DNA of 64,000 nt, from contig NZ_SMCQ01000001.1 in NCBI RefSeq assembly GCF_004343035.1, positions 307,671 through 371,670 on the forward strand, in the 5' to 3' direction. Below, piece by piece: positions 12,149 to 31,222 of the stretch (the stretch's first letter is position 1; each line of letters starts with the position of its first letter). Made by a program: the position numbers and the translations under genes. The notes under the pieces were generated by a model. It ran no database searches and was not told the origin of the DNA. It saw only the letters and a list, made by a program, of their open reading frames with translations. Origin of the DNA: Longibaculum muris (lineage in GTDB: Bacteria; Bacillota_I; Bacilli_A; Erysipelotrichales; Coprobacillaceae).

Positions 12149-12164
12149 TTAAGGAGAATTGAAT

Positions 12165-12968: not shown

Positions 12969-13042
12969 AAATTTTCATTCTATATAACCGCGACAAAACA
13001 AATACAACTAACTAAAAGCAAGTCAAAATGAATGATATCCCA

Positions 13043-13071
13043 TTGACTTTGAAGTGGAAAAGTAGTAATAT
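13043..13071 (+). promoter_or_regulatory. Promoter of the restriction-modification operon
   Basis: TTGACT (13043-13048), 17-bp spacer, TAATAT (13066-13071), 46 bp before the regulator start codon. It is near-consensus, so the operon should be well expressed unless repressed. Confidence 0.7.
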
Positions 13072-13117
13072 ATATAATGTTTTAATATTGTATTTGATGT
13101 AATCAGGAGGGAAAAAC

Positions 13118-13333
13118 ATGCGATGTCGACTATCTACTTTAATGGGGCAATCAAGATATTCAATACAAGATGTCCACAATAAAACAGGTTTATCAAGAAG
13201 TACTGTGGCACAATTGTATCATGACAAAGCAACAAGAATTGATTTTGACACTGTAGAGAAACTGTGCACTCTTTTTAAATGTGATATTACTGATTTACTA
13301 GAATTAGAAGGAATAAAAACGATAAAAGGATAG
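13118..13333 (+). CDS. Cro/YozG-type regulator of the R-M operon
   Basis: The 71-aa HTH protein (YSIQDVHNKTGLSRSTVAQL, then VEKLCTLFKCDITDLLELEG) sits first in the operon, 9 bp before the first methyltransferase. Small HTH genes in this position in R-M loci adjust methylase and nuclease timing in the manner of C proteins. AGGAGG precedes the ATG. It resembles in layout, but is not a close copy of, the HTH at 11515-11733. Confidence 0.8.
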   Translation: MRCRLSTLMGQSRYSIQDVHNKTGLSRSTVAQLYHDKATRIDFDTVEKLCTLFKCDITDLLELEGIKTIKG

Positions 13334-14509: not shown

Positions 14510-15659
14510 AAATAGAGTTAAAGCACTTTCTTTATTTGCAAATGTAGGTATTGCTGAAACATATTTAGATGAGTTAGGAGTTGATGTTGTTGTTGCTAAT
14601 GAACTTTTAGAAGTTCGCTGTAATTTTTATAAGCATCTTTATCCAAATGTTAATGTGATTCAAGGAGATATTACTGAAGAAGATATATTTAATAAAGTTA
14701 TTCAAAAAGCGAAAGAATCACAGATTGAAATGGTAATTGCTACTCCTCCTTGTCAGGGAATGTCATGTGCTGGAAGAAAAGATCCAAAAGATCCACGAAA
14801 TTTTTTAGTCTATTATGCGGTTGAAGCCATTAAATTATTGAAGCCTAGATTCGTCATTATTGAAAATGTAACAATGCAGCAGCATACGCAAATACTGTAC
14901 AAAGATAAGTATGTATTTATACCAGAGTATATAGAAAATGAACTTGGTGAATATTACAGTTTTAATAAACAGCGTATAGTTAATGCAATGGATTATGGAG
15001 TTCCCCAATCGAGACAAAGATATATATATTTGCTTGTACGAAAAGATGAGAGTGTTACTTGGGAATTTCCTAAAAAAAACAATCATATTATAACACTTAA
15101 AGAAGCTATAGGAGATTTACCGTCATTAGATCCGTGCCTACGAGATGTTAATGAGAGATGGAGATTCCCGGATTATGAATTTAAGCGTATTGAAGGGTTG
15201 AAAGTATCTAAATGGCATTATCCTCCAGTTCATAGTTGGAAACAAGTTGAATGGATGATTCATACCCCAAGCGGAATGTCTGCTTTTAAAAACAAAATTT
15301 TCTATCCAATGACAAAAGGACGAAGAGTAAAAGGCGCACCAAGAACTTATATGAGAATGGACTGGGATAAGCCGGCAACGACCATTATGCAGAATAGTGG
15401 TGTAATTTCAGCGTTTTCGACTGTACATCCAGGAAGAATCATCAATGATTGTGATGATGAAAATCAGAGGTTTTATTCTGATGCACGAGCCCTAACCATC
15501 TATGAATTACTAATTTTATCATCTTTGCCACTTGATTGGAATATTCCAGAATGGGCAGATGATATACTGATTAGAAAAGTTATTGGTGAAGGGATACCAC
15601 CATTACTTATTAAAAAAGCAATTGAATCTCTTATTGTTGGAGGTAAATATGATAGGTAA
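14490..15659 (+). CDS. C5-cytosine DNA methyltransferase, LlaJI/BsuMI-type (second of pair)
   Basis: The 389-aa paralogue of the preceding enzyme has motif I ALSLFANVG, motif IV ATPPCQGMS with catalytic C88, motif VI IENV, motif VIII QSRQRYIYLLV and motif X EGIPPLLIKKAI. The two proteins align throughout (shared TYxxxxGV, YKHLYPxVN, KWHYPP and HPGR blocks) but differ in the segment between motifs VIII and IX that reads the target. The likely role is methylation of the opposite strand of the same site. It overlaps the McrB-like gene by 11 bp. Confidence 0.93.
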   Translation: MKTIKFKNRVKALSLFANVGIAETYLDELGVDVVVANELLEVRCNFYKHLYPNVNVIQGDITEEDIFNKVIQKAKESQIEMVIATPPCQGMSCAGRKDPKDPRNFLVYYAVEAIKLLKPRFVIIENVTMQQHTQILYKDKYVFIPEYIENELGEYYSFNKQRIVNAMDYGVPQSRQRYIYLLVRKDESVTWEFPKKNNHIITLKEAIGDLPSLDPCLRDVNERWRFPDYEFKRIEGLKVSKWHYPPVHSWKQVEWMIHTPSGMSAFKNKIFYPMTKGRRVKGAPRTYMRMDWDKPATTIMQNSGVISAFSTVHPGRIINDCDDENQRFYSDARALTIYELLILSSLPLDWNIPEWADDILIRKVIGEGIPPLLIKKAIESLIVGGKYDR

Positions 15660-18018
15660 ATTGACAATTGATAAATCAAGTATGAATTTAAGCTATTTTC
15701 TTTATACAATTATTATTATTTATGAAAAAGGTGGGAAAATATCTCGACATGATTTTGTTAATGAAATGGCTAAATTTGTAGGCGTTTCAGCTTTTCAAAA
15801 TAATAAAGAAAATAGAACAGCATATAACAAAAGCAAACTACCAAGATATTTTGGTTTTGTGGATATAATTCTTGACGAGAAAGAATTAAACTACTTGGTT
15901 CTAACTCATAGAGGTAGAATCTTGGTTGATTATATTTCTGATGCTGGCGATGGTGTTGCTCCTTCAGAAAGATTTTACATCTCTTTAAAACATAAAAAAG
16001 ATTTTATTGATTTAATTTTTGATAGTGTAATCTTTGATTCTTTTGGAAAAAATAACAGTGGTGCCGAGCAATCTAATACTGATGTTGAACCACCAAAAGT
16101 AGTTTTTAAGACTATACAAGAATTAGGAAATGCTACAGCGGAAGAAATTTGTTATGTAATGTTTGGATTAAATCGTGGTGAGTTTGACTCATTTGAAGAG
16201 GCCATTAATAAAGTCAAAGATAACCGCTCTAAATACATCTATGATTATGAAGATATCATTGATGAATGGGGTATCACAAATATTGTACATGATTGCAAAA
16301 TTATTAATATTTTTACTGATAACAATATATCTCTCCTTGTGAGCGAAAGGAATAAAGATAACGGTAAAATTTATTATCAGTTAAGCAGTTCATTAAGTGA
16401 TGTTCAAAAAGAGCAAATTAAAATTATTAGTGCTGTTTATGAGCCTATAAAACTTTTTGCATATACTCATGGAGATAAGAATTTAATTGAAAATTGGATT
16501 GAAGGATCGGTTTTAGGCAGGGTTAGTGACAATTCTCAAATTATAAAATATGACTTCAATTTAGGAATAGAAGGCTTTTGTACAAAAAAAGATAGTTCTG
16601 AATTTATGCCTGGAGCTTTCGAGAAGGCTGTATTGGAAGCATATAAAAATGAAAAGAAGAATATATATCTAGTTGTGACCAATATTACAGAATCCCTCTT
16701 CTTTAATACGATTTCAAGATATACATCTTTGTTGAAAAGAATTGATGAAGTGAAAAATCTTTTTCATGGGTGGTCTGCTGAACCACTATATGATGAAAAG
16801 TTTTACAAATGGCTAACAACAAAAAGTAATAGAGCGAGAAATATTTTACCTAAGGATAAGATATTATTGCCTTCAAATTTACAGATAGTGGGGACAATTA
16901 TTATGAATGAAGAAAATTCAAATACACAATTCGATTATAAATTTCGTAGATGTTTAGTGGATACAGAAAAGAGTGCAGTAACAGATGATAGCAATATGGA
17001 TGAATCATTAAGAGTTACAACAGGTGAAAATATCCTTTTATATGGAGTGCCTGGTTCTGGAAAAAGTTGGACTATTCAACATGAATACTGTGATGATGAG
17101 GAGTGTATGGAACGTTTAGTGTTCCATCCAGATTATATGTATTCCGATTTTGTTGGACAGATTCTTCCGGTGGTAAAGAGAGATGATGAAGGTAAGGAAA
17201 AGGTGAGATATGAGTTTAAACCTGGACCATTCACAAAGATTCTAAAGAAAGCCTATGAAGACCCAGAAAAATCTTATTACCTTGTAATTGAAGAAATTAA
17301 TAGAGGCAATGCACCTGCGATTTTTGGAGAAATTTTCCAGTTATTAGATAGGATGGATGAAGATAAGGATGGATACAAAAAAGGAACAAGCGAATATGGA
17401 ATAACCAATGAAAATATTGCTCTAGAAGTTTATGGAGATGTGGATACTAAAGTTCGTATACCATCTAATCTTTCTATCCTTGGGACAATGAATACATCCG
17501 ATCAGAATGTGTTCACATTGGATACTGCTTTCCAACGTAGATGGATAATGAGAATGATAAAGAATACTTTTTCTAATCATAAATATGCCAATAAAAAAAT
17601 CCTTGATACTAATGTTTCTTGGAAACAATTCTGTGAGGCAATTAACGACGAAATTTTAAGACGAAACAATGTAACTTCTTCAGAAGATAAACGTTTAGGC
17701 GCATACTTTGTTTCTGCAGATGATTTACTTCATATAAAAACACAAGATAACTCTTCAGAAAAACAAAAAATAGAAGCAGAACATAAAAATGCTCGTTTTG
17801 CAGAAAAAGTAATAAAGTATTTATGGGATGATGCATTTAAGTTTTCTCATCCTGATACTTTTGATACACGTAAATATAAAAGTTTAGAAAAAATAATTGA
17901 TGTGTTTAACTCTTCAAGTGAAGATGCTAGATTTGATGTATTTCATGAAAATCTAAGAAAACTAATTCTTGAGGGTGTTGAAGAAAATAATTCCGTTTCT
18001 GATGAAGATAATGAGTAG
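15649..18018 (+). CDS. McrB-like AAA+ restriction protein (LlaJI R1-like)
   Basis: The 789-aa protein has an N-terminal DNA-binding half (unassigned by sequence) and a C-terminal McrB-type AAA+ motor. Walker A is GVPGSGKS (about 466-473), Walker B with the family signature is LVIEEINRGN (about 545), and the sensor block is LGTMNTSDQN (about 611). Known McrB-type motors use GTP and drive a nuclease partner. A closely following McrC-like gene fits. ATG 15649 is set by GGAGG five bases upstream. In LlaJI the homologous R1 recognises the site through its N-terminal domain. Confidence 0.9.
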   Translation: MIGKLTIDKSSMNLSYFLYTIIIIYEKGGKISRHDFVNEMAKFVGVSAFQNNKENRTAYNKSKLPRYFGFVDIILDEKELNYLVLTHRGRILVDYISDAGDGVAPSERFYISLKHKKDFIDLIFDSVIFDSFGKNNSGAEQSNTDVEPPKVVFKTIQELGNATAEEICYVMFGLNRGEFDSFEEAINKVKDNRSKYIYDYEDIIDEWGITNIVHDCKIINIFTDNNISLLVSERNKDNGKIYYQLSSSLSDVQKEQIKIISAVYEPIKLFAYTHGDKNLIENWIEGSVLGRVSDNSQIIKYDFNLGIEGFCTKKDSSEFMPGAFEKAVLEAYKNEKKNIYLVVTNITESLFFNTISRYTSLLKRIDEVKNLFHGWSAEPLYDEKFYKWLTTKSNRARNILPKDKILLPSNLQIVGTIIMNEENSNTQFDYKFRRCLVDTEKSAVTDDSNMDESLRVTTGENILLYGVPGSGKSWTIQHEYCDDEECMERLVFHPDYMYSDFVGQILPVVKRDDEGKEKVRYEFKPGPFTKILKKAYEDPEKSYYLVIEEINRGNAPAIFGEIFQLLDRMDEDKDGYKKGTSEYGITNENIALEVYGDVDTKVRIPSNLSILGTMNTSDQNVFTLDTAFQRRWIMRMIKNTFSNHKYANKKILDTNVSWKQFCEAINDEILRRNNVTSSEDKRLGAYFVSADDLLHIKTQDNSSEKQKIEAEHKNARFAEKVIKYLWDDAFKFSHPDTFDTRKYKSLEKIIDVFNSSSEDARFDVFHENLRKLILEGVEENNSVSDEDNE

Positions 18019-18038
18019 ACACGAAAGGAGGAAAACTA

Positions 18039-19313
18039 ATGGACTTAGGTTTGAATTTAAAGGTCAGATGCCATATTAACGAAAATGGAGATGGTGATCG
18101 ATTTGTTGGAGTAAAAGCCGATACAAACAATGCTATGGTTTTCTTCCCAATGGGTTATCGTTTGCCGGATAATGAAGAAGATATAAGAGAAGATATTTTA
18201 AAACTTATAGATGTAATAGCTACATTTAATGATTCAACAGATAAGTTATTAGCGATGGAACAATTTGCTGCTCCACAATCAGTAAACTTTCCGATAAATG
18301 CCTATATGAATATAATTCGTTATTTTCTAGAACAAAATGATTATTACAAAGAAAGAGAACAAGTAAGGAAAACTTCTGATCGTGGAAAAATTGATTTTCC
18401 GACATCTTTAAGAAAAAATGTAAAGTTTTTTCAAGAAGATGGTTCACCATTTTTTGATAGATATACAGTAAAAGGTTCTAGTCCAAATGATAAGAATTTA
18501 ATTACTCAAATTCATAAGTATTGTGTGTATGAGGCCTTTAGTACCTTGGGATGGCTATTTAGTCCATTACCTATAAAAGACCCGCACATTACATTAGAGA
18601 AAGAACGATTTTTATATGCATTAAAGAAGAAATTAGCAATCACTCATAATGATAAAGATAAACGATTGTTTCAAGCGATGATTCAAATGCTAGAATATTT
18701 AGATTCCGAAGATGATAATAAGCAGTATTATTTTGGAACTGATAGATTTGAATATGTGTGGGAAAAACTCATAGATGAAGTTTTCGGAATTAGAGGTAAA
18801 GAAGAATTCTTTCCTAGAACGAAATGGAATCTTAAATTTAATGCTAATAAGAATAATCATGCACTTGAACCGGATAGTATTATGATGTGCAACGATAAAA
18901 TCTATGTTCTTGATGCTAAATATTATCGATATGGAGTCACTGGAAATCCACAGCATCTTCCAGAGTCATCATCAATTAATAAGCAAATTACATACGGAGA
19001 ATATATAGATAATTGTCGTGAATTAAAGGATAAATATGGAGATTTACCAATTTACAATGCATTTTTAATGCCATTTAATAAAGGTGAAAATCCATTCAAT
19101 GTTACAAATGATTATTTTCTTAATATAGGAGAAGCAACGGGAGAATGGAAAAATAACTCCAAATTGTATGAACACGTCCAAGGAATAGTAATTGACATTA
19201 GATTTCTAATGAACAATTATACAGGATCTCATAAGAGTAAGATAAGAAAACTTGCTCAAGCTATAGATGAGGCATTAGCTAAGAATAATGGGATGTTACC
19301 TAACGAAGATTAA
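18039..19313 (+). CDS. McrC-like PD-(D/E)xK nuclease (LlaJI R2-like)
   Basis: The 424-aa protein supplies the cutting activity to the McrB-like partner. A PD-(D/E)xK core is visible near residues 275-295: LEPDSIMM, then IYVLDAKYYRYG, with D, D and K in normal spacing. The upstream helical part matches McrC/DUF2357-type proteins. AAAGGAGG precedes the ATG, 20 bp after the McrB-like gene. It ends the operon. The original terminator just downstream has been split by an IS element. Confidence 0.88.
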   Translation: MDLGLNLKVRCHINENGDGDRFVGVKADTNNAMVFFPMGYRLPDNEEDIREDILKLIDVIATFNDSTDKLLAMEQFAAPQSVNFPINAYMNIIRYFLEQNDYYKEREQVRKTSDRGKIDFPTSLRKNVKFFQEDGSPFFDRYTVKGSSPNDKNLITQIHKYCVYEAFSTLGWLFSPLPIKDPHITLEKERFLYALKKKLAITHNDKDKRLFQAMIQMLEYLDSEDDNKQYYFGTDRFEYVWEKLIDEVFGIRGKEEFFPRTKWNLKFNANKNNHALEPDSIMMCNDKIYVLDAKYYRYGVTGNPQHLPESSSINKQITYGEYIDNCRELKDKYGDLPIYNAFLMPFNKGENPFNVTNDYFLNIGEATGEWKNNSKLYEHVQGIVIDIRFLMNNYTGSHKSKIRKLAQAIDEALAKNNGMLPNED

Positions 19314-19326: not shown

Positions 19327-20824
19327 GAGACTGTGAAAAAAAGTCTGTAAATTAGTAAAGAATATGAGCCTTCTGTGGTAAAATCAAATTATCATAGGAG
19401 GCTTTTAAAATGGCTAAGAAAAAAGAAGTTTACAAAGTAAAACCATTAAATGAAAACAAAAGAAATATCATTGCAGCTCTAATTGATGAATACGATATTG
19501 AGACAGCTGATGATATTCAAGAAGCTCTTAAAGATCTACTTGGTGGAACCATAAAATCCATGATGGAAGCAGAAATGGATGAACATCTAGGTTACGACAA
19601 ATATGAGCGTAGTAGCAATGAGAATTATCGTAACGGTACAAAACCGAAGAAAGTTCGCAGCTCATATGGAGAATTTGAACTTGCAGTTCCACAAGACAGA
19701 GATGGTACATTTGAACCACAGATTGTTAAAAAGCGTCAAAAGGACATCTCTGAAATTGATCAAAAGATAATATCAATGTACTCTAGAGGATTAACAACAA
19801 GACAAATTTCTGAGCAAATAGAAGAAATCTATGGTTTTGAATGTAGCGAAGGATTCATTTCAAACGTTACAGATAAGATTCTTCAGGATATTGAAGATTG
19901 GCAAAAGAGACCTTTAGATAGTGTATATCCGGTATTGTTCATAGATGCAGTCCATTTTTCCGTAAGACAAGATAATCTAATTAGAAAACTTGCAGCATAT
20001 GTAATATTAGGTATTGACTGTAATGGTATGAAAGACGTTATCAGTCTTCAGATAGGTGAAAATGAGAGCAGTAAATACTGGCTAGGAGTCTTAAACGAAC
20101 TTAAGAACAGAGGAGTTCAGGATGTAATGATAATATGTGCAGATGGACTTATTGGAATAAAAGAAGCTATTTCTACTGCATTTCCAAAAGCCGAGTACCA
20201 AAGATGTATTGTTCATATGGTCAGAAATACTCTAAAACATGTATCTTACAAGGATAAGAAAGCTTTTGCTACTGATTTAAAATCAATATATCTATCACCA
20301 ACCGAGTCATTAGGACATGAAAATCTGTTAGAAGTAAGAGCAAAATGGGATGATAAATATCCAGGAGCAATGAAACGTTGGGAAGAAAACTGGGATGTAA
20401 TATCTCCAATTTTTAAATTTTCTATGGATGTAAGAAAAATAATATATACAACAAATGCTATAGAAAGTCTAAATAGTACATACAAGAAATTAAATCGTCA
20501 AAGAAGTGTATTTCCAAGCGATAAAGCTTTGTTAAAGTCACTATATCTATCAACAATTCAGGCAACTAAGAAATGGTCTCAAGGGCTTAGAGGTTGGGGT
20601 AAAGTGTATGGAGAGTTTTCTATTATGTATCCTGATAGAATGCCCGATACCTTTTAGATTTGCTCTAAAATAGCTATCAAAAGACTCCATCAAAAGCGAT
20701 GGAGTCATTGACGTGCTAACTTTAATATTTTATATTATGGATAGCAAGGAACAATTTAAAAAGTTCCATATCAGTTAATACTAAACCACAGAAGGTTAAT
20801 TTACAGAAAAAACTTCACAGTCTC
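19327..20824 (+). mobile_element. IS256-family insertion sequence, intact
   Basis: The 1498-bp element is bounded by imperfect inverted repeats starting GAGACTGTGAA and containing CTGTAAATTA about 10 bp further in. It is flanked by a perfect 8-bp duplication AACCAAGA (19319-19326 and 20825-20832). The only gene is a full-length Mutator-type transposase. A perfect hairpin GACTCCATC-6-GATGGAGTC (20683-20706) follows the gene and may stop transcription. The clean duplication suggests a recent insertion. Confidence 0.93.
19410..20657 (+). CDS. IS256-family (Mutator-type) transposase
   Basis: The 415-aa DDE transposase has all three acidic residues in context: LFIDAVHFSV, IICADGLIG and TTNAIESLNS. 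The C/H block YQRCIVHMVRNTLKHV is typical of the family. Its length matches intact IS256 relatives and no frameshift is seen, so it is probably active. ATAGGAGG precedes the ATG. Confidence 0.95.
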   Translation: MAKKKEVYKVKPLNENKRNIIAALIDEYDIETADDIQEALKDLLGGTIKSMMEAEMDEHLGYDKYERSSNENYRNGTKPKKVRSSYGEFELAVPQDRDGTFEPQIVKKRQKDISEIDQKIISMYSRGLTTRQISEQIEEIYGFECSEGFISNVTDKILQDIEDWQKRPLDSVYPVLFIDAVHFSVRQDNLIRKLAAYVILGIDCNGMKDVISLQIGENESSKYWLGVLNELKNRGVQDVMIICADGLIGIKEAISTAFPKAEYQRCIVHMVRNTLKHVSYKDKKAFATDLKSIYLSPTESLGHENLLEVRAKWDDKYPGAMKRWEENWDVISPIFKFSMDVRKIIYTTNAIESLNSTYKKLNRQRSVFPSDKALLKSLYLSTIQATKKWSQGLRGWGKVYGEFSIMYPDRMPDTF

Positions 20825-20869
20825 AACCAAGATAAGTGGATTTAACCACTTGTCTTGGTTATTTTTTTT
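20825..20869 (+). terminator. Operon terminator rebuilt at the IS right flank
   Basis: AACCAAGATAAGTGG (20825-20839) pairs over 15 bp (one G-U) with 20846-20860, followed by A and eight T. The left-arm start AACCAAGA is the IS target duplication, so the hairpin originally followed the McrC-like gene directly at 19319. It also overlaps the stop codon of the convergent reverse gene. Confidence 0.9.
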
Positions 20870-22046
20870 GTCTCATTCTATAACTTCTTACATTACTTGC
20901 ATTTCTACAGTCATCGCAACAGTATTTCTTTCTACTATTTGATGTTTTAACAAGAAAGAAGTTTGTACAAGAAGGATTAGCACACTTTCTATATATTTCT
21001 GATTTTGGTTTCATATAAAAAAGTGAAAAATATAATGCCGTTAATAGATTAGGAGCTTTCCATGTTGGCTCAAGAGTGTTTGGATTGTATATTGGCCTCA
21101 TCTTTGAAACATGCTGATTTATTTCTTTTGATAGAACATATTTGCCGATAAGTAATAATCCTTTTTTCATATTGTCATCAAGAGTGTAATTTGAATCACT
21201 TTTATAGAATTCAATTCCAGAGTCGAATGTTACATTTTTAATAACACCATTACTATGCATAAAATGAAATAAAAAATCGATTATTAATCTTTGAATCTTA
21301 GACACGTTATGACAGTTTTTGTATGCAATAGTAATCTTTCTGTATTGTGAGTCATTAATTCCTGGATAAGAATACATAAAGGTTTCCCCAGTTGAAATAT
21401 CCTCATATTCATCTACACGTAAATTATAGTTCTTCTCATATATACTATCTAGAATAACATAGTAATCTTCATCATCTATAGTGATACATTTACTAGAATT
21501 TTCTACGATTACGGAATCTATTGTGTCAAAAACAGAATCACGGTATCCAGTATAGTTCTGGTTATCGGATATTTTCATTTTTATTTGTGGAGAGAGTAGC
21601 AAGTACAAAGTTAACTGTAAAATAATTTCATAATTAATTGAGGTATTTTGTAATTCATTCATGAGAAGTAATGCAGCTTTAATATGATAGGTTATTTGAA
21701 TCAGCTGATTAAAATCAATAATATTTGATTCATTAGTTGGTAATCTGAAGAAATAGCCATACTCTTCAAAAAATTTCAATAGTGCTTTTGCATTGTTAGA
21801 AGGAAGTGATAAAAATTTACCAAGAATATTGTCATGAGTAATAGAACCACATTTAGTAGTTAAACATAAACCATTATTTCCACTAAAAGAAAAGTAATTT
21901 TTCTCACCATCGCTACATGAAATAGTAAGGACATTTTTTGAGTTTGTATTGCTATCACTATTTTTTTGTATTTCAAAAAGGCATTTTTGTCCAATAAAAG
22001 AAAAGTAATCATTACTTAAATTAAAAAAATTTTCATTATTTGTCAT
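20859..22046 (-). CDS. Zinc-finger (CGNR-like) protein, candidate prophage regulator
   Basis: The 395-aa protein has a long N-terminal region of mixed helices with no recognised family. It ends in a zinc-binding module: CANPSCTNFF (C-x4-C), KKYCCDDCRN and an Arg-rich tail, as in CGNR-type zinc fingers of bacterial regulators. It is divergent from the phage early operon. Three copies of ACTTACATT and two partial ones lie between, overlapping both promoters. This is the position of a phage repressor, but no XRE repressor is present here. Other roles, such as abortive infection, cannot be excluded. Confidence 0.6.
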   Translation of the reverse strand: MTNNENFFNLSNDYFSFIGQKCLFEIQKNSDSNTNSKNVLTISCSDGEKNYFSFSGNNGLCLTTKCGSITHDNILGKFLSLPSNNAKALLKFFEEYGYFFRLPTNESNIIDFNQLIQITYHIKAALLLMNELQNTSINYEIILQLTLYLLLSPQIKMKISDNQNYTGYRDSVFDTIDSVIVENSSKCITIDDEDYYVILDSIYEKNYNLRVDEYEDISTGETFMYSYPGINDSQYRKITIAYKNCHNVSKIQRLIIDFLFHFMHSNGVIKNVTFDSGIEFYKSDSNYTLDDNMKKGLLLIGKYVLSKEINQHVSKMRPIYNPNTLEPTWKAPNLLTALYFSLFYMKPKSEIYRKCANPSCTNFFLVKTSNSRKKYCCDDCRNASNVRSYRMRQKK

Positions 22047-22116
22047 AATATTCTCCTCTAAAATTTGTTCTCTATTTTAAAGAGAGCTTTTTTTATTGCT
22101 TATTTATCAAATGAAA

Positions 22117-22232
22117 GTAAGTGAAATGTTATTGATAAATATATTTTAACACTTACATTATGGTGATGCAATGCTTATATATATTATAAAACAGAAAAAT
22201 GTAAGTGATTATGTAAGAAATTTACTTACATT
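22117..22232. promoter_or_regulatory. ACTTACATT operator cluster
   Basis: Perfect 9-mers ACTTACATT or its complement occur at 22151-22159, 22198-22206 and 22224-22232, with partial copies at 22117-22127 and 22211-22217. Those at 22151 and 22224 overlap the reverse and forward promoters respectively. The layout resembles a repressor switch. Confidence 0.65.
22143..22171 (-). promoter_or_regulatory. Promoter of the reverse zinc-finger gene
   Basis: On the minus strand TTGCAT (22171-22166), 17-bp spacer, TAAAAT (22148-22143). One ACTTACATT operator sits in the spacer. Confidence 0.6.
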
Positions 22233-22249
22233 TTGCTAAAGCTTATACT
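22221..22249 (+). promoter_or_regulatory. Early promoter of the prophage
   Basis: TTTACT (22221-22226), 17-bp spacer, TATACT (22244-22249). The -35 box overlaps an ACTTACATT operator. Transcription would enter a leader of about 230 nt before the first protein gene. Confidence 0.55.
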
Positions 22250-22362
22250 ATCCGTAGAGTTAGTTAACTACTCAAAAAATAAAAATAACTCAAGCCTAAT
22301 TACGTAATACGGCGCGAGGATACAAATATTGAGCCATTCACTAAATCAGTGAAAGGTGAAAA

Positions 22363-22437
22363 TTGATGTACCCTAATTTCGTCATGCGTAAAAAATGGCC
22401 ATAAGAGTCGGTACATCAAAGTATCGGCTCATTTTTT
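22363..22437 (+). promoter_or_regulatory. Transcription attenuator of the phage early operon
   Basis: A terminator stem GAGTCGGTAC/GTATCGGCTC (22405-22414 with 22421-22430, all paired with G-U, 6-nt loop) is followed by six T. Its left arm overlaps GGTACATCAA (22410-22419), which is perfectly complementary over 10 bp to TTGATGTACC (22363-22372). Only one of the two helices can form at a time. The upstream arm contains the start codon of a short leader ORF, so translation should decide the outcome. Confidence 0.7.
22366..22404 (+). CDS. Leader peptide MYPNFVMRKKWP
   Basis: The 12-codon ORF starts at ATG 22366 with AAAGGTGAA six bases upstream. Its TAA (22402-22404) directly abuts the terminator stem starting at 22405. 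A hairpin TTCACT-5-AGTGAA (22337-22353) precedes the ribosome binding site. The tight fit to the attenuator supports a regulatory leader peptide. Expression is not shown. Confidence 0.5.
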   Translation: MYPNFVMRKKWP

Positions 22438-22483: not shown

Positions 22484-23101
22484 ATGAAAATTTACAAGAC
22501 AAGCTCAAAGAAAAGAGATACTTACACTTACACATTTACTGGAATTGATGGTAGAGAAGAAAAAATCGTTCTTCGTCCTGGAGAAAACGGGGTAACTGAG
22601 GCTTACATCAAAACACTTCATGCATTAGATGACAGTGAGGTTTATTACAACAATAAAAACTCAAAACCAGAGCGAACTCCAGAAGAAAAAACTGAAATCA
22701 AGGAATGGACTAGAAAGTTTATCGAAGAAGAAACTGCTAGAAGAGGAGAGGCTCCATCAGAATATGAAGTTGCTTATAAGGTAGAAGAAAGATTCCCTAA
22801 AAATTACAACCTATCACTTGAATATGATTTTGGTAGTGATGAATTAGATACCGATTTTGATAAGAGCCGTCTTTTATACCAATTAGCGGTTAACCCAAAT
22901 TATGAGGATAGTGAAGATACAGAAAGAGTGCGTGAACTTATTGAAGAACTTACGGACAAGCAAAAGAAAGTAATTAAAAAGGTATTGTATGAAGAAATGA
23001 ACTTCACTCAGATTTCAAAGGAAATGAAAATCAGTGTCAAGAATGTTTCAAAGCATTATAACAACGCATTAAATTACATCGAAAAAAACTTTTTTAAATA
23101 A
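22484..23101 (+). CDS. Phage transcription factor with sigma-70 region 4-like HTH
   Basis: The 205-aa protein starts at ATG 22484 after GCGAGGA. The N-terminal half is variable and charged. The last 60 residues (IEELTDKQKKVIKKVLYEEM, then FTQISKEMKISVKNVSKHYN) form a sigma-70 region 4-like helix-turn-helix. Similar early proteins in Bacillota prophages open the DUF2800/DUF2815 replication operon and are annotated as sigma-like. It may recruit polymerase to later phage promoters. Confidence 0.7.
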   Translation: MKIYKTSSKKRDTYTYTFTGIDGREEKIVLRPGENGVTEAYIKTLHALDDSEVYYNNKNSKPERTPEEKTEIKEWTRKFIEEETARRGEAPSEYEVAYKVEERFPKNYNLSLEYDFGSDELDTDFDKSRLLYQLAVNPNYEDSEDTERVRELIEELTDKQKKVIKKVLYEEMNFTQISKEMKISVKNVSKHYNNALNYIEKNFFK

Positions 23102-23112: not shown

Positions 23113-23149
23113 GGGGTAAAATTTGAGCCATTTTCTTTGCCTGTTACTT
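23113..23149 (+). promoter_or_regulatory. Repeated phage motif, copy 1
   Basis: GGGGTAAAA (23113-23121), 10 variable bases, TTTCTTTGCCTGTTACTT (23132-23149). Two other copies with identical spacing lie at 27630-27666 and 57493-57529. It lies 12 bp after a stop codon and 39 bp before the next start. It is a regulatory DNA or RNA element; no protein is encoded by it. Confidence 0.7.
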
Positions 23150-23184
23150 GTAAGGGGCAACACCTTACAGAAAGCGAGGTAAGG
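23150..23184 (+). promoter_or_regulatory. Competing hairpins over a ribosome binding site
   Basis: CCTTAC (23163-23168) can pair with GTAAGG upstream (23150-23155) or with GTAAGG downstream (23179-23184). The downstream copy contains the ribosome binding region of the gene at 23188. The two helices exclude each other. Confidence 0.5.
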
Positions 23185-23187
23185 AAA

Positions 23188-23391
23188 ATGGCAATGAAAC
23201 ACAAAATCACAATCAATGTTTCAGACCCCAACGGAAAGAAAGCCAATGTCCTAAAAGCAGCAGATATGCGTTTGCCATCAAGAATTGCACGATTCTTGTT
23301 TGGTGACTTTACACAAGTGTATTTGCTTGCTCCAGGACAGACGGTTGAGTCCGTTAATGTCAAAGAACTAAAGGAAGGAGGAAATGCTTAA
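23188..23391 (+). CDS. Small conserved phage protein of unknown function
   Basis: The 67-aa basic protein (MAMKHKITINVSDPNGKKAN...) has alternating beta-type sequence and a central RLPSRIARFLFGDF. ATG 23188 is chosen over an upstream start at 23137, which would run through the repeated motif. It overlaps the next gene by one base. It lies at the head of the phage replication operon; no function recognised. Confidence 0.6.
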   Translation: MAMKHKITINVSDPNGKKANVLKAADMRLPSRIARFLFGDFTQVYLLAPGQTVESVNVKELKEGGNA

Positions 23392-23681
23392 TGAGTAAAT
23401 CAAGCGAGTTAGCAGTACAGGTTAAACAGTTAAAGCAATGTGGCGAAATGCTTATTGGTATAGCAGATAGTCTTTCACAGCTATTTTCTTCAGATGAAGA
23501 AAAACAAACACCAAAGAAGGTTTTTACATTTGAAGAAGTGCGAGGAGTTCTTGCTGCTAAATCAAGAGAAGGTCATACAGCTGAAATTAAAGCAATTCTT
23601 ACCGAATTTGGTGTAGAAAAACTTTCAGATGTGGATCCATCAAAGTATGAAGAACTATTGCAAAAAGTGGAGGTGATGTAA
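23391..23681 (+). CDS. Small phage protein of the replication operon
   Basis: The 96-aa protein has an N-terminal helical part, a charged linker and a C-terminal 45 residues (TFEEVRGVLAAKSREGHTAE, then ILTEFGVEKLSDVDPSKYEE). The latter resemble the small helical domain of phage proteins that precede DUF2800 nucleases, sometimes labelled rrp5-like. Possibly an accessory of single-strand-binding or recombination proteins. Its start overlaps the previous stop (TAATG). Confidence 0.6.
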   Translation: MSKSSELAVQVKQLKQCGEMLIGIADSLSQLFSSDEEKQTPKKVFTFEEVRGVLAAKSREGHTAEIKAILTEFGVEKLSDVDPSKYEELLQKVEVM

Positions 23682-24812
23682 ATGGCAGCACACGCATTAT
23701 TGTCTGCATCATCTAGTCACCGCTGGATTAACTGTCCGCCATCAGCAAAACTTAATGCAGAGGCAGAAAAAGTAAATTGTGAAACAAATAGTGAATATGC
23801 AAAGCAAGGTACTGATGCCCATGCTCTTTGCGAATACAAATTAAAGATTGCAATTGGTATGGAAAGCACTGACCCTACAGAGAACCTTAGTTTCTATGAC
23901 GAAGAAATGGAACGATGTGCAGAAGAATACAAAAACTTTTGCTTATCTGTAAATCAAGAAACACAGAAAACTTGTAAAGACCCAGTTATTCTTATCGAAG
24001 AAAAACTTGATTTTTCAAATTATGTTCCTAACGGATTTGGAACTGGCGACTGTGTAATCATTGGAGATGGAACTCTTCATGTAATTGATTATAAGCATGG
24101 TCAAGGTGTAGAAGTATTAGCTGACCATAACCCTCAAATGATGTGTTACGCATTAGGTGCATTGAATTTGTACGATGGAATTTATGATATTGATAATGTT
24201 TCAATGACTATCTTTCAACCAAGAAGAGAAAACATCAGTACATTCGTTATGGAAAAAGATGGACTCTATACTTGGGCAGAAACAGTTCTTGCACCAAGAG
24301 CAAAATTAGCCTTTGATGGCGAAGGTGAATTTATGGCAGGAGATCATTGTAGATTTTGCAAGGTCAAAGCAACTTGTAGAAAACGCATGGAACAAAACAT
24401 GGGACTTGCAAAGTATGATTTTGAAATGCCTGTAACATTAGAAGATGCTGAGATTTCAATTGTTCTTTCAAAAGTAGATGAACTTGTATCATGGGCAACT
24501 GATGTTAAAGAGTATGCACTTCAGCAAGCAATGAGTGGTGTTCATTATGACGGATTTAAAGTAGTTGAAGGTCGCAGTGTTCGCAAGTATACCGATGAAG
24601 AAAAAGTAGCAGAAACTGTTATTAGTAATGGACAAAATCCATATGAAAAGAAATTGTTAGGAATAACAGCTATGACTGCACTTCTTGGTAAGAAGCAATT
24701 TAATGAATTATTAGGTGATTTGGTTTACAAGCCAGAAGGCAAACCAACACTTGTTCCAGAAAGTGATAAACGTCCGGAAATCAAAACAGCAAAAGAAGAT
24801 TTTAATGACTAA
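23682..24812 (+). CDS. DUF2800 phage nuclease, Cas4/RecB-like
   Basis: The 376-aa protein has the PD-(D/E)xK core TGDCVIIGDG...VIDYKHGQG (about 120-140) and cysteines at both ends of the fold: NCPPS near residue 18, and HCRFCKVKATC near 222-231. This is the 4Fe-4S arrangement of Cas4/AddB-type exonucleases. It probably resects phage DNA ends for recombination, working with the DUF2815 protein downstream. Start ATG 23682 follows GGAGGTGATG. Confidence 0.85.
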   Translation: MAAHALLSASSSHRWINCPPSAKLNAEAEKVNCETNSEYAKQGTDAHALCEYKLKIAIGMESTDPTENLSFYDEEMERCAEEYKNFCLSVNQETQKTCKDPVILIEEKLDFSNYVPNGFGTGDCVIIGDGTLHVIDYKHGQGVEVLADHNPQMMCYALGALNLYDGIYDIDNVSMTIFQPRRENISTFVMEKDGLYTWAETVLAPRAKLAFDGEGEFMAGDHCRFCKVKATCRKRMEQNMGLAKYDFEMPVTLEDAEISIVLSKVDELVSWATDVKEYALQQAMSGVHYDGFKVVEGRSVRKYTDEEKVAETVISNGQNPYEKKLLGITAMTALLGKKQFNELLGDLVYKPEGKPTLVPESDKRPEIKTAKEDFND

Positions 24813-24827
24813 TAGGAGGAAAAGAAT

Positions 24828-25391
24828 ATGTCAAAATTTAATAACCCAATGAAAGTAATTACAGGGCCTAACACAAGATGGAGCTATGCAAATGTCTGGG
24901 AGCCAAAAAGTATCAATGGTGGTGCTCCAAAGTATAGTGTCAGTCTTATCATTCCAAAATCAGATAAGACAACAGTGGATAAAATCAATGCTGCAATTAA
25001 GGCAGCTTATGAAGAAGGTCAATCAAAACTTAAAGGCAATGGTAGAAGTGTTCCTGCACTTTCTGCAATCAAGACACCACTTCGTGACGGAGACCTTGAA
25101 AGGCCAGACGATGAAGCATATGCAAATAGTTATTTCATCAATGCCAACTCTCCATCAGCACCTGGAATTGTAGATGCCGATAGAAATATAATCATTGACC
25201 GCAGTGAAGTATATAGTGGCGTTTATGGACGTGCATCAATCAGTCTTTATGCATTCAATTCAAATGGAAATAAAGGAATTGCTTGTGGCCTTAACAATCT
25301 TCAGAAGATTAAAGACGGAGAGCCACTTGGTGGTAAATCACGTGCTGAGGATGACTTTGCGACAGACGTAGATGATGATTTCTTATCTTAA
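24828..25391 (+). CDS. DUF2815 phage single-strand DNA-binding protein
   Basis: The 187-aa protein begins with TGPNTRWSYANVWEPKSING and contains KYSVSLIIPKSDK and GVYGRASISLYAFNSNGNKG. It ends in an acidic tail (DDFATDVDDDFLS) like those used by SSBs to bind partners. DUF2815 proteins are OB-fold ssDNA binders. It sits between the Cas4-like nuclease and the polymerase in a fixed order seen in many Bacillota phages. Confidence 0.88.
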   Translation: MSKFNNPMKVITGPNTRWSYANVWEPKSINGGAPKYSVSLIIPKSDKTTVDKINAAIKAAYEEGQSKLKGNGRSVPALSAIKTPLRDGDLERPDDEAYANSYFINANSPSAPGIVDADRNIIIDRSEVYSGVYGRASISLYAFNSNGNKGIACGLNNLQKIKDGEPLGGKSRAEDDFATDVDDDFLS

Positions 25392-25412
25392 GAAAGGGTT
25401 TAGGTGAAAAAT

Positions 25413-25574
25413 ATGGAATTTTTAGAGACAATCATTTTATTTGTATGTATATTAGCATGGACGAGTTTAAGTATTGTTTTGTTAATTGATAACGTTCAAG
25501 GTTTTATCTTTGATAGAAGACGAGAAAAAAGAGAACTTGAGTATCATGAAGAACGTATGAAAAGTTTGAAATAA
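25413..25574 (+). CDS. Small single-span membrane protein
   Basis: The 53-aa protein has one hydrophobic helix (about 5-25, IILFVCILAWTSLSIVLLI) followed by a strongly charged helix (RRREKRELEYHEERMK). ATG 25413 or the in-frame GTG 25404 can use AAAGGGTTTAGG. It fills the gap between the DUF2815 and polymerase genes. It could anchor the replication machinery at the membrane or act in superinfection immunity; neither is shown. Confidence 0.6.
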   Translation: MEFLETIILFVCILAWTSLSIVLLIDNVQGFIFDRRREKRELEYHEERMKSLK

Positions 25575-25632
25575 TGTAGGTTTGGCGGTAGGAGAAATCT
25601 TACCGTCTTACTTTTTAGGAAGGTGGCAAGAA

Positions 25633-27615
25633 ATGAAAAGACTAAATTTGGATTTGGAAACATACTCAGATGTTGATTTGCAGAAATGCGGTGTCTATAA
25701 GTATGTGGAGTCAGATAACTTTGAAATTTTATTATTTGCATATTCGGTTGATGGAAGTGAAGTAACTGTGGTTGATTTGGCTCAAGGAGAAGAAATCCCT
25801 CTAGAAATTATTAAAGCATTAACTGATGAAGATATTACAAAATGGGCTTTTAATGCTAATTTTGAAAGAATCTGTTTATCCGAATATTTACGAAGATTTT
25901 ATGAAAATGAATTTACATCATACAGTATTTTAGAAGATACAGTTGGTGATTATCTTGACCCTATATCATGGAAATGTTCTATGGTTTGGTCAGCGTATAT
26001 GGGACTTCCTTTATCACTTGCAGGAGCAGGTGCAGTATTAGGATTATCAGAACAAAAGATGACAGAAGGGAAGGAGCTCATCCGATATTTTTGTGTTCCA
26101 TGTAAAGCTACGAAAGTGAATGGTGGAAGAACCAGAAATCTACCAATTCACGATAAAGCAAAGTGGGAGTTATTTAAGAAATATAACAAAAGAGATGTTG
26201 AGGTAGAAATGGCTATACAAGAAAAACTTTCTAAGTTCCCAGTACCGGATTTCATTTGGGAAGAATATCATCTTGATCAGGAAATCAATGATAGAGGAAT
26301 TGCTCTTGATTTAGATATGGTAAAGAATGCTATTGCTTTTGATGAAAAGTCTAAAGCAGTACTGTCACATAAAATGCAAGAGTTAACAGGTCTTGAAAAT
26401 CCTAACTCAGTTATGCAAATGAAAGAGTGGCTTTCAAATAACGGATTAGAGATGGATAGTCTTGGCAAAAAGGAAGTGGTAGCAGTATTAAAAACAGTGA
26501 AAGAACCACTTAAAACTGTACTTGAGTTAAGACAGAAGCTTTCAAAATCCTCAGTTAAGAAATATAGGGCAATGGAAAATGCTGTATGCAGAGATGGAAG
26601 AGCAAGAGGAATGTTCATGTTTTATGGAGCCAATCGAAGTGGGAGATGGGCAGGCAGACTTATTCAATTACAGAATCTTCCTCAAAATCACATGTCAGAT
26701 TTAGCAGAGGCACGAGGGCTTGTAAAGGATGGAAATTATGATGCTATGAATATGCTTTACGATGATATACCGGATACTTTATCGCAGCTTATTCGCACCG
26801 CCTTCGTACCAAGAAAAGATATGAAATTTATAGTATCTGATTTTTCTGCAATTGAAGCTAGAGTGTTATCTCATCTAGCAGGAGAAAAATGGAGAGCTGA
26901 GGTTTTTGCAAATGGTGGTGACATCTACTGCGCATCGGCAAGTCAGATGTTTGGCGTTACGGTAGAAAAGCATGGTCAAAATGCTCATTTAAGACAAAAA
27001 GGGAAAATCGCAGAATTAGCACTTGGCTATGGAGGTTCTGTTGGAGCTTTAAAAGCTATGGGAGCCCTTGATATGGGACTTAACGAAGAAGAATTGCAAC
27101 CTCTTGTGAATATGTGGAGAGAGGCAAATCCTAATATCATTAAATTTTGGTGGGATGTTGATCGTGCGGTAAAAAAAGCAGTTATTGAAAGAACACCATC
27201 TAAAATTGGAGATATCAGTTTTTTCTATAAAAGTGGAATACTTTTTATTGAACTTCCAAGTGGCAGAAGACTTTCCTATGTAAAACCCAAGATGGGAGTA
27301 AATCAGTTTGGGAGTGAATCTGTCACTTATGAAGGTGTAGGTGGAACTAAGAAATGGGAAAGAATCGAAAGTTATGGACCGAAGTTTGTAGAGAATATCG
27401 TACAAGCAATTAGCAGAGATATATTAATGTATGCCATCAGAACTTTATCTCATTGTTTTATCGTAGGTCATGTTCATGATGAATTGATTATTGAATGCAG
27501 TAAAGATGTTTCGCTTGATGATATTTGTAAGCAAATGGGAAGAACCCCACCTTGGATTTCCGGTATTTTACTTCGTGCAGATGGATATGAAACAGAATTT
27601 TATAAAAAAGATTAA
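25633..27615 (+). CDS. Phage DNA polymerase, family A
   Basis: The 660-aa enzyme has a 3'-5' exonuclease domain (LDLETYSD at 5-12; NANFE) and the family A palm. Motif A is DFSAIEARVLSHLAGE (about 402), motif B contains KGKIAELALGYGG (about 455), and motif C is HDELIIE (about 614). No 5' nuclease domain is present, as usual for phage enzymes. AGGAAGGTGG precedes ATG 25633. It replicates the phage genome with the primase-helicase downstream. Confidence 0.93.
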   Translation: MKRLNLDLETYSDVDLQKCGVYKYVESDNFEILLFAYSVDGSEVTVVDLAQGEEIPLEIIKALTDEDITKWAFNANFERICLSEYLRRFYENEFTSYSILEDTVGDYLDPISWKCSMVWSAYMGLPLSLAGAGAVLGLSEQKMTEGKELIRYFCVPCKATKVNGGRTRNLPIHDKAKWELFKKYNKRDVEVEMAIQEKLSKFPVPDFIWEEYHLDQEINDRGIALDLDMVKNAIAFDEKSKAVLSHKMQELTGLENPNSVMQMKEWLSNNGLEMDSLGKKEVVAVLKTVKEPLKTVLELRQKLSKSSVKKYRAMENAVCRDGRARGMFMFYGANRSGRWAGRLIQLQNLPQNHMSDLAEARGLVKDGNYDAMNMLYDDIPDTLSQLIRTAFVPRKDMKFIVSDFSAIEARVLSHLAGEKWRAEVFANGGDIYCASASQMFGVTVEKHGQNAHLRQKGKIAELALGYGGSVGALKAMGALDMGLNEEELQPLVNMWREANPNIIKFWWDVDRAVKKAVIERTPSKIGDISFFYKSGILFIELPSGRRLSYVKPKMGVNQFGSESVTYEGVGGTKKWERIESYGPKFVENIVQAISRDILMYAIRTLSHCFIVGHVHDELIIECSKDVSLDDICKQMGRTPPWISGILLRADGYETEFYKKD

Positions 27616-27624
27616 ATAAATGAC

Positions 27625-27652
27625 TGGCAGGGGTAAAATCCTGCCATTTTTC
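27625..27652 (+). terminator. Terminator after the polymerase gene, overlapping motif copy 2
   Basis: TGGCAGG (27625-27631) pairs with CCTGCCA (27640-27646) across 8 nt, followed by five T. The variable N10 part of the repeated phage motif forms the right arm here. Confidence 0.7.
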
Positions 27653-27666
27653 TTTGCCTGTTATTT
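27630..27666 (+). promoter_or_regulatory. Repeated phage motif, copy 2
   Basis: GGGGTAAAA (27630-27638), 10 bases, TTTCTTTGCCTGTTATTT (27649-27666). Same length and spacing as copies 1 and 3. Confidence 0.7.
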
Positions 27667-27695
27667 AGAGGAATAGTCCTCGAAAAAATAACAGG
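27657..27695 (+). promoter_or_regulatory. Long stem-loop at the antirepressor ribosome binding site
   Basis: CCTGTTATTT (27657-27666) is perfectly complementary to AAATAACAGG (27686-27695), with an inner hairpin GAGGA-ATAG-TCCTC. The right arm ends in the GG of the GGAGG ribosome binding site for the gene at 27707, so the helix would hinder initiation. Confidence 0.6.
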
Positions 27696-27706
27696 AGGTA
27701 ATTCTA

Positions 27707-28516
27707 ATGAACGAATTGCGAAAATTTACAAATGCGGAGTTTGGTTCTATCCGCGCACTAACAATAAATGGAGAGCCATATTTTGTAGGAAAGGACGTAG
27801 CAGAGATTCTTGGTTACAGCAATACCAAAGATGCAATTGCGACTCATGTAGATGAGGAAGACAGAACTGTAATCCAAAGGTCGGAAAACGCGACCTTAGA
27901 AATTCCAAATAGAGGATTGACGGTTATAAACGAAAGTGGTCTTTACAGTTTAATTCTTTCAAGCAAGATGCCAAGTGCAAAAAAGTTTAAGAGATGGGTA
28001 ACATCGGAAGTATTGCCTAGTATTCGTAAATACGGAACTTATGCAGTAGACGAATTACTTAATAATCCCGATATGCTTATTGCTGCTCTTACTCAGCTAA
28101 AAGAAGAAAGAGAAAATGCAAGGCTGCTTCAAGAAACAATTGCTATTCAGAATCAGCAAATTGTAGAAATGAAACCTAAGGCTAGTTACTACGATGTAGT
28201 TTTGAACTGTAAGGATTTAGTTGCTATTTCTGTAATTGCTAAAGACTATGGTTGGACTGCCAATTATATGAATCAATATCTTCACGAAAAAGGGATTCAG
28301 TTTAAACAAGGTAAGAAAATTTGGCTTTTGTACAAAGAGTATGCAGAAATGGGACTTACATCAACGAAAACACATACTTATGGAGGTTCAGACGGAAGCA
28401 CTCATTCCAAACCACATACCTATTGGACACAAAAAGGACGTTTGTTTATCTACGACTTGCTTAAAAAAGATGGCATCTTACCGATGATAGAAAAAGAGGT
28501 GCAGGAGAATGACTAA
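27707..28516 (+). CDS. Phage antirepressor, BRO-N plus KilAC
   Basis: The 269-aa protein has an N-terminal BRO domain (INGEPYFVGKDVAEILGY, ESGLYSLILSSKMPSAKKFK, about 1-115), a coiled linker and a C-terminal KilAC DNA-binding domain (SVIAKDYGWTANYMNQYLHE, about 165-265). Such proteins counteract repressors or regulate early genes. AGGAGG precedes the ATG and is partly enclosed by an upstream stem-loop. It overlaps the next gene by 8 bp. Confidence 0.92.
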   Translation: MNELRKFTNAEFGSIRALTINGEPYFVGKDVAEILGYSNTKDAIATHVDEEDRTVIQRSENATLEIPNRGLTVINESGLYSLILSSKMPSAKKFKRWVTSEVLPSIRKYGTYAVDELLNNPDMLIAALTQLKEERENARLLQETIAIQNQQIVEMKPKASYYDVVLNCKDLVAISVIAKDYGWTANYMNQYLHEKGIQFKQGKKIWLLYKEYAEMGLTSTKTHTYGGSDGSTHSKPHTYWTQKGRLFIYDLLKKDGILPMIEKEVQEND

Positions 28517-28853
28517 TAAGGAATATAGACCGCTTGTTTACATCTGTAGTAAGTATCGTGGGGATATAAAAACAAATGTAGAAAATGCTCGTAAGTACTG
28601 TCGATTTGCAATTGAAAATATGACAATTCCTATTGCTCCCCACCTTTTATACCCACAGTTTATGAATGACGATGATCCCAATGAGAGATACTTAGCCGTT
28701 CATACGATTAACTATGTGCTATTGGGAAAATGTAGAGTGCTTTGGGTGTTTGGCAAAGAATTCTCTGATGGAATGCAAAGAGAAATTGATATTGCCAAAA
28801 GAAGAAAAATGAAAATCAGATATTTTTCTGAAGAAAAGGAGGAGCAAGCATAA
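28509..28853 (+). CDS. DUF4406-like protein (nucleoside deoxyribosyltransferase fold)
   Basis: The 114-aa protein (PLVYICSKYRGDIKTNVENA..., APHLLYPQFM, SDGMQREIDIAKRRKM) resembles the DUF4406 family of the nucleoside 2-deoxyribosyltransferase-like fold, common in phages. It may act on nucleotides for phage DNA synthesis. It lies between the antirepressor and the primase-helicase and overlaps the latter's start by one base. Catalytic activity cannot be judged by eye. Confidence 0.75.
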   Translation: MTNKEYRPLVYICSKYRGDIKTNVENARKYCRFAIENMTIPIAPHLLYPQFMNDDDPNERYLAVHTINYVLLGKCRVLWVFGKEFSDGMQREIDIAKRRKMKIRYFSEEKEEQA

Positions 28854-31093: not shown

Positions 31094-31095
31094 GA

Positions 31096-31200
31096 GGTGG
31101 AGGTCGTGGAGGTCTATTATATAAAACCCCTTTAGGGCAGAATTTTTAGTAAAAAATCACTCTATATAAAGTTTTAGAAACGACTTCATCGACCTCCACC
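31096..31200. repeat. Long inverted repeat with GGAGGTC repeats, candidate origin
   Basis: GGTGGAGGTCG (31096-31106) is perfectly inverted as CGACCTCCACC (31190-31200). The left arm continues into a second GTGGAGGTC, and the loop holds CCC-TTTA-GGG. It fills the gap between primase-helicase and VRR-NUC genes. It could be a phage origin, a regulatory RNA stem, or both. Confidence 0.5.
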
Positions 31201-31222
31201 ATTATAGATTTTGGAGGTATTT

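Follow-up and report, generated by a model that had tools for sequence, protein, structure and literature searches.

Gene content of the locus

The window, i.e., the whole 64-kb stretch of DNA analyzed here, contains a prophage in which a gene for a CGNR zinc-finger protein lies between a restriction-modification (R-M) operon, with which it converges, and the early operon, from which it diverges. The following features were observed.

13118..13333 (+): Cro/C1-type HTH gene, 71 aa, first of the R-M operon (HTH_26, PF13443, 3e-18)
13343..15659 (+): two C5-cytosine methyltransferases, LlaJI M1/M2 type (PF00145)
15583..19313 (+): AAA_5 (McrB-like) and RE_LlaJI endonuclease genes (PF07728, PF09563), convergent with the CGNR gene
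19410..20657 (+): Mutator-type (IS256-like) transposase (PF00872, 5.9e-113), between RE_LlaJI and CGNR
20859..22046 (-): CGNR regulator gene, 395 aa, with a predicted N-terminal ABATE-like body and C-terminal treble-clef zinc finger
22290..22435 (+): conserved early-operon leader (GGATAC...GTACCC), with a terminator-like stem at 22405-22430
22484..23101 (+): first early gene, sigma-70 region 4-like (ORF listed from a TTG at 22436; ATG at 22484)
23137..32843 (+): early/replication operon with p84, p96, DUF2800, Enc34-type SSB, DNA pol A, Ant/BRO, primase-type, VRR-NUC and helicase genes
27707-28516: Ant/BRO gene, within the early operon

DUF2800, the Enc34 SSB (presumably the same family as DUF2815) and DNA pol A were assigned by Pfam. 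The primase-type, VRR-NUC and helicase genes were named after homologues, the last two via genes of phiD12. DUF2800, DUF2815/Enc34 SSB, DNA polymerase, VRR-NUC and helicase are early genes of “Ca. Heliusviridae”; the CGNR gene is not among the nine core genes of that family, as far as the accessible portion of the publication goes (PMC9226167). Three of the phage records that bear a CGNR gene are labelled “Ca. Heliusvirales.” The two C5 methyltransferases together with the AAA_5 and RE_LlaJI genes qualify the cassette as a LlaJI-type R-M system.

A truncated HsdM gene (12159-12824; N-terminal domain and the start of N6_Mtase) is found at the left edge of the prophage. Toward the right end there are two adjacent large serine recombinases (58177-61511; 590 and 526 aa), as in Phi1207.3, and just to the right of them a 96-aa HTH gene followed by an Mrr-type restriction endonuclease (61576-62776). 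No attL/attR direct repeat of 10 nt or more was detected between 12601-13200 and 61301-62000, and the right end showed no remainder of hsdM, which leaves the insertion site unproven. The initial annotation, made from the DNA alone, had stated that no XRE repressor lies beside the early operon. This was right, yet a 71-aa Cro/C1-type HTH gene does head the R-M operon (13118-13333). Searches of the whole genome with HTH_3 and S24 did not reveal any CI-like gene within the prophage.

The CGNR protein

The reverse-strand gene described at the outset, with its 395-aa product and C-terminal CGNR module, is present, and residues 353-393 match zf-CGNR (PF11706) above the curated cut-off (E 1.1e-5, 25.6 bits against a gathering score of 24). 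This is the sole Pfam match over a cut-off in the protein. The predicted zinc-binding cysteines are C355, C360, C376 and C380; in the alignment columns, the first two and C380 are found in all 25 relatives and C376 in at least 90% of them, and zf-CGNR itself was recognized in 20 of the 25 at E<=0.01. None of the Pfam HTH families matched at E<=1, which leaves the protein outside the CI/XRE family, and neither ABATE (PF07336, E<=1) nor an S24 domain was found in it. PHROG 30403, a family without assigned function, matches nearly the full length (5.9e-48), and PADLOC has no model for the protein.

An AlphaFold2 model obtained from a 25-row alignment had a pLDDT of 85.6 and a pTM of 0.85. Its best PDB match by both structure methods was 3h0n (Jann_2411), with E 0.063 and probability 0.95 in Foldseek and Z 5.8 in VIA (149 residues aligned, rmsd 4.2). 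The latter is under the safe level of the tool, and the next unrelated VIA row had Z 4.2. The finger of 3h0n was also matched by hmmsearch (E 0.02). The predicted fold thus appears nearest to that of Jann_2411 (ABATE plus CGNR finger), with scores that are modest but above those of unrelated rows. Foldseek against BFVD gave only one clear relative, an uncharacterised fragment. The model resembles Jann_2411, the ABATE-zf-CGNR protein of 3H0N (PF07336 and PF11706), in having a treble-clef finger at the C-terminus preceded by an alpha/beta-hairpin/alpha arrangement. However, Jann_2411 has only ca. 185 aa, the 395-aa protein of the window lacks the PF07336 match, and, unlike Jann_2411, it is encoded by phages, with an early operon and R-M genes as neighbours. 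According to the part of their paper that is accessible, the authors of Jann_2411 propose a ligand- or signal-responsive transcription regulator (PMC2954205).

Putative operators in the window

The intergenic region between the CGNR gene and the early operon contains the following promoter and operator candidates.

22114..22122 (-): partial operator ACTTACTTT (CACTTACWTT match at 22114-22123)
22143..22171 (-): proposed CGNR promoter TTGCAT-17-TAAAAT, with a weak -35, missed by the promoter scan
22151..22159 (+): putative operator ACTTACATT, within the spacer of the proposed CGNR promoter (no binding data)
22198..22206 (-): putative operator ACTTACATT, between the two proposed promoters (no binding data)
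22211..22218 (-): partial operator, reading ATGTAAGA on the + strand
22221..22249 (+): proposed early promoter TTTACT-17-TATACT, found by the promoter scan (9/12)
22224..22232 (+): putative operator ACTTACATT, overlapping the -35 of the proposed early promoter (no binding data)

Three perfect and two partial copies of a 9-mer, with one site in each promoter, had been claimed for this region. There are indeed exactly three matches to ACTTACATT in 64 kb, all within 82 bp (22151-22232), the partial copies exist (22114-22122 and 22211-22218), and the first exact copy falls in the spacer of the CGNR promoter and the last over the -35 of the early promoter. The two divergent promoters are also present as written, but promoter-like matches in the intergenic region are at chance frequency (15 found, 13.8 expected) and the CGNR -35 is poor. 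By chance, 1.18 copies of ACTTACATT are expected over 64 kb, and at least three turned up in 13 of 100 shuffles. Any 9-mer repeated three times was found in 0 of 500 shuffles within the 200 bp upstream of the CGNR gene, and in 1 of 500 within the 389-bp intergenic region. However, 35 of 1273 overlapping 389-bp segments (ca. 7 distinct places in 64 kb) also hold some 9-mer thrice, which makes the triple by itself no more than moderately unusual. For the degenerate pattern WWWGTAAK, the densest 300 bp of the window are 22001-22300, with seven sites (runner-up, four).

Relatives of the CGNR gene and linkage to restriction-modification genes

The search with tblastn against phage records gave eight matches to the CGNR protein, all below 60% identity, and scans provided 16 loci in IMG/VR and 24 in GTDB species genomes. 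Genome searches detected the gene in 2 of 43 genomes of the family, 4 of 315 of the order and 9 of 395 of the class. Each count includes the genome of the window, and one of the nine class-level matches (E 4.6e-4) is to the finger only. The gene map covered 58 CGNR loci, which fell into 28 clusters at 90% identity, and 27 non-redundant upstream regions of 340 bp each were used for the operator statistics. A protein found mainly outside phages and without operator sites would have spoken against a phage regulator. This did not turn out to be the case, as phage DUF2800/SSB/DNA polymerase genes were present in 32 of the 46 loci longer than 9 kb, and a GTAA core was found in 27 of 27 upstream regions. 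Nevertheless, at three loci (L033, L034 and L039) the CGNR and R-M genes were not accompanied by any of the mapped phage genes, so prophage status is not proved for all loci. The divergent position of CGNR relative to the early operon holds across loci with quite different replication genes, including L199, in which the R-M operon is turned round. L199 is a GC-rich phage whose CGNR gene lies upstream of the R-M operon and co-oriented with it, with five GTAA sites before CGNR.

Three features go beyond the initial annotation: the linkage to R-M genes, the insertion of an IS between them and CGNR, and the conserved leader RNA. An RE_LlaJI-type gene was observed in 54 of the 58 CGNR loci, tail-to-tail with CGNR in all 54. 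The gap between both genes goes from -4 to 74 bp, except in two copies of the window locus, where it is 1545 bp because the Mutator-type transposase has been inserted. The four loci without RE_LlaJI are L001 (a short copy of the window), L006 (the record ends after CGNR), and the cluster L040/L041. In this cluster, as read from L041, type I-like R-M genes (DUF4268, two N6_Mtase and Methylase_S) are among the convergent neighbours of CGNR instead of LlaJI, along with a gene for a 716-aa protein without Pfam match. Starting from the endonuclease instead, CGNR was found in 32 of 32 RE_LlaJI loci of IMG/VR viral contigs, including L152, where it is broken, and L142, where the R-M operon is on the other side of CGNR. 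This viral set is biased towards relatives, since the query patterns had been derived from CGNR-linked enzymes. Among bacterial-genome RE_LlaJI loci retrieved with the Pfam model (ca. 4 kb each), only 6 of 26 had CGNR, one of them merely a short piece; the copy of the window itself was missed there because the IS intervenes. Pairwise distances of CGNR correlated with those of the endonuclease (McrC) at r 0.87 (28 loci), against 0.47 for the DNA polymerase (13 loci) and 0.26 for DUF2800 (17 loci), while polymerase and DUF2800 distances correlated with each other at 0.94 (13 loci). Hence, CGNR travels with the R-M genes and is in part uncoupled from the replication genes.

A GTAA-core site conserved across relatives

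The expectation that the 9-mer would be conserved together with the protein in other prophages was met only for its core. The GTAA-core site is conserved, as AGTAAT/GTAAT in relatives and TGTAAGT in the window, and the exact 9-mer is only one version of it. When each of 33 upstream regions was examined for exact repeated 9-mers, only for the window and L002 was the count matched by no more than 1 of 200 shuffles. GTAAT and AGTAA were the most enriched 5-mers over dinucleotide shuffles (81 found and 37.6 expected, and 78 and 35.5, respectively), each present in 27 of 27 upstream regions; AGTAAT was found 42 times, 12.6 being expected, in 23 of the 27. Upstream of CGNR, the 5-mers had a density of 1.53 per 100 bp and AGTAAT one of 0.40, compared to 0.54 and 0.08, respectively, in 105 other intergenic regions from these loci, i.e., the site is three- to five-fold denser upstream of CGNR. 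Regions upstream of R-M operons were at background for the core (0.46 and 0.04 per 100 bp, 6930 bp).

The enrichment was reproduced in 15 hold-out loci less than 80% identical to the discovery set, with the truncated L142 and the broken L152 kept in. GTAAT/AGTAA were found 84 times against 36.7 expected (largest of 100 shuffles, 52) and AGTAAT 21 times against 6.4 (largest, 12). The closest relative among them (L140, 51% identity) has two CACTTACTTTTTGGC repeats in the upstream region. Leaving out the 3 of 27 regions without TATAAT, 19 of 24 CGNR TATAAT boxes had a GTAA site within -36..+14, a number reached in 0 of 200 random draws (mean 11.5). Some loci have few sites, with two each upstream of CGNR in L031, L054, L018 and L040. 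An EM motif search of the 27 upstream regions with 14 seeds collapsed to A/T-rich noise, and neither a fixed half-site spacing nor a clear preferred dyad was found.

Early operons with and without the CGNR gene

Operators conserved where the protein is absent would have argued against the proposal, and no such conservation was seen. In the 4 kb upstream of DUF2800 (loci with <2.5 kb upstream were left out), GTAA-core clusters with z>=3 upstream of the early operon appeared in 0 of 61 CGNR-minus loci and in 10 of 31 CGNR-plus loci. It should be noted that at least six of these ten clusters (L016, L017, L043, L015, L004 and L022) had to be rejected as operators, being a palindromic leader feature. 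This element inflates the CGNR-plus arm, so the test is weaker than its p-value there, but the 0 of 61 stands. In Streptococcus phages (L016, L002, L004 and L019), the primase/p96 divergent region has palindromic CTTACTAAGTAAG-type elements at each end. The dependence of the sites on the CGNR gene was also observed in the 155 bp around the leader start: 11 CGNR-plus loci had 35 sites there (shuffles 16.7, maximum 34), or 2.05 per 100 bp, and eight CGNR-minus loci sharing the leader had 6 (shuffles 8.0), or 0.48 per 100 bp. One locus, L035, has no site at the early promoter although it is CGNR-plus. L120, with many cores at the early promoter, was considered as a possible unrecognized CGNR locus and discarded, its divergent gene coding for an unrelated 79-aa protein.

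An HTH gene adjoins the early operon in the CGNR-minus relatives L083 and L086, and in L077, also CGNR-minus, there is a 295-aa protein without Pfam match in that place. Only 1 of 80 DUF2800 loci taken from IMG/VR carries CGNR (L061), again beside McrBC genes. An HTH_3 match over the cut-off was about as frequent in records with CGNR (11 of 22) as in those without it (20 of 36, out of 79 CGNR-minus loci), and gave no clean separation of the groups. When only ORFs of >100 aa were considered and Streptococcus-type records excluded, it was found in none of the CGNR-plus and in ca. 12 of the 36 CGNR-minus records. The Streptococcus CGNR phages also encode a ca. 230-aa HTH+S24 protein next to UmuC genes, so that CGNR need not be the sole repressor there.

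The leader is found ahead of the early operon whether or not the phage has CGNR. Besides the window, it was found at L020, L048, L014, L010, L047, L168, L115, L159, L066, L060, L035, L039, L069, L154, L089, L152, L106 and L102. GATAC is invariant and GTACC nearly so, both being able to pair, and there are CCTGA/TCAGG-type arms and a terminator-like stem. Rfam had no match for the leader of the window at E<=1, and RNAalifold on the alignment (19 of 23 candidate stretches) gave only nine pairs with little covariation. It is possibly an unrecorded attenuator or antiterminator RNA.

A putative zinc-finger repressor of lysogeny

The lysogeny switch built on a zinc-finger regulator that had been put forward in the initial annotation is supported by these results, and neither of the two outcomes that would have refuted it came true, although repression and a role in lysogeny are still inferences. 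The gene is placed as that of a lysogeny repressor would be: it diverges from the early operon, and both promoters carry candidate operators conserved together with the protein. We consider it probable, in the absence of any binding or expression data, that the CGNR protein is an autoregulated non-HTH repressor of a lysogeny switch, inherited with its R-M cassette. The zinc finger would bind GTAA-core sites (CACTTACATT in the window) at both divergent promoters, that of the CGNR gene and that of the early operon, a binding inferred from the position and conservation of the sites. In the lysogen, the protein would keep the early operon, headed by the sigma-region-4-like gene, switched off and tune its own level, its gene standing where an HTH (CI-like) gene can be found in relatives that share this early operon. 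Neither the protein nor the prophage has an S24 domain, so SOS cleavage of the repressor is unlikely; we infer that release would probably occur via a ligand on the ABATE-like body or via an antirepressor (e.g., the Ant/BRO product of 27707-28516) and not via RecA. Once started, the early transcript would cross the conserved leader with its terminator-like stem, which may represent a second layer of control. The R-M cassette behind CGNR could be defence cargo of the lysogenic phase travelling with the gene, its purpose being likewise inferred. Two points weigh against this reading: the GTAA core has merely 5 to 6 bp, and CGNR is observed to be co-inherited more tightly with the R-M endonuclease than with the replication genes.

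The latter point would fit a protein that is mainly a control protein of the R-M system, a phage-specific partner of LlaJI, with GTAA sites serving only for its autoregulation. The tail-to-tail arrangement in 54 of 54 loci with both genes, the presence of CGNR in 32 of 32 LlaJI loci of viral contigs, and the distance correlation with McrC (0.87, versus 0.47 for the DNA polymerase and 0.26 for DUF2800) are all in its favor. We nevertheless regard it as unlikely: GTAA-core density upstream of R-M operons is at background, GTAA sites flank the early promoter too, outside phages LlaJI often lacks CGNR as a neighbour (only 6 of 26 bacterial loci have it), and in L040/L041 CGNR adjoins type I-like R-M genes instead.

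The protein might instead activate its own promoter, the early one or both, acting as a lytic or establishment switch and not as a maintenance repressor. A divergent gene with sites at both promoters is compatible with either sign, and activated promoters often have poor -35 boxes, as the proposed ones do. However, sites within the spacer of one promoter and across the -35 of the other, as in the window, have the geometry usual for repression, and the sites on CGNR promoters generally lie within -36..+14, a repression-like position as well, which makes activation rather improbable. There is very little to recommend the idea that the sites belong to another factor or to promoter or RNA sequence, with the protein as a mere passenger. 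The core is short, AT-rich promoters hold similar strings, and what looked like a cluster upstream of p96 in Streptococcus phages proved to be a palindromic leader feature. But clusters are missing from CGNR-minus phages with the same early operon, many of them with the sigma-like gene, and from other intergenic regions of the same phages. Furthermore, the enrichment is backed by dinucleotide shuffles and the hold-out set, and even the GC-rich phage L199 has a five-site GTAA cluster before CGNR.

Returning to the repressor, it resembles CI/XRE repressors in its divergence from the early operon, the sites on both promoters and the expected autoregulation. Unlike them, it has neither HTH nor S24, and the zinc finger would be the DNA-binding part. 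More tentatively, and with the balance slightly against it, we suggest a new class of phage repressors in which an ABATE-like sensor is combined with a GTAA-reading CGNR finger and responds to a small signal and not by SOS cleavage, forming an exchangeable immunity module that moves with R-M genes between phages with different replication genes.

Comparison with described elements and implications

The homologue of the window protein in Phi1207.3, Orf15 (28% identity over 94%), is also convergent with LlaJI genes in a temperate phage, and in the accessible text of both reports it is described only as a DNA-binding zinc-finger protein, with no role in lysogeny (PMC4260502; PMC9927172). Phi1207.3 is truly temperate, with the lysis/lysogeny choice heavily towards lysogeny and a ca. 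two-fold response to mitomycin, as given in the available sections of that work (PMC9927172). Tn6164 of C. difficile has the same order, LlaJI, CGNR (Orf6, on the opposite strand) and an ECF sigma factor. The gene order is therefore already in print, without functional comment in the portion of the article at hand, in which the function of Orf6 is given as unknown (PMC3485107). No paper joining CGNR, phage and repressor was found in full text, although most subscription papers were outside the search.

Phages of this group have been reported to be widespread in the human gut, according to the accessible part of the source (PMC9226167). The group includes streptococcal phages carrying mef(A)/msr(D), and no lysogeny control is described for it in the literature examined, which was available only in part. 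A zinc-finger regulator with a predicted operator offers a direct and cheap test of how these phages stay dormant. Such a regulator might account for the weak response of Phi1207.3 to mitomycin, and its operator would supply zf-CGNR proteins with a DNA target. Finally, the near-invariable pairing with R-M genes raises the question of whether repression and restriction immunity are inherited as one unit.
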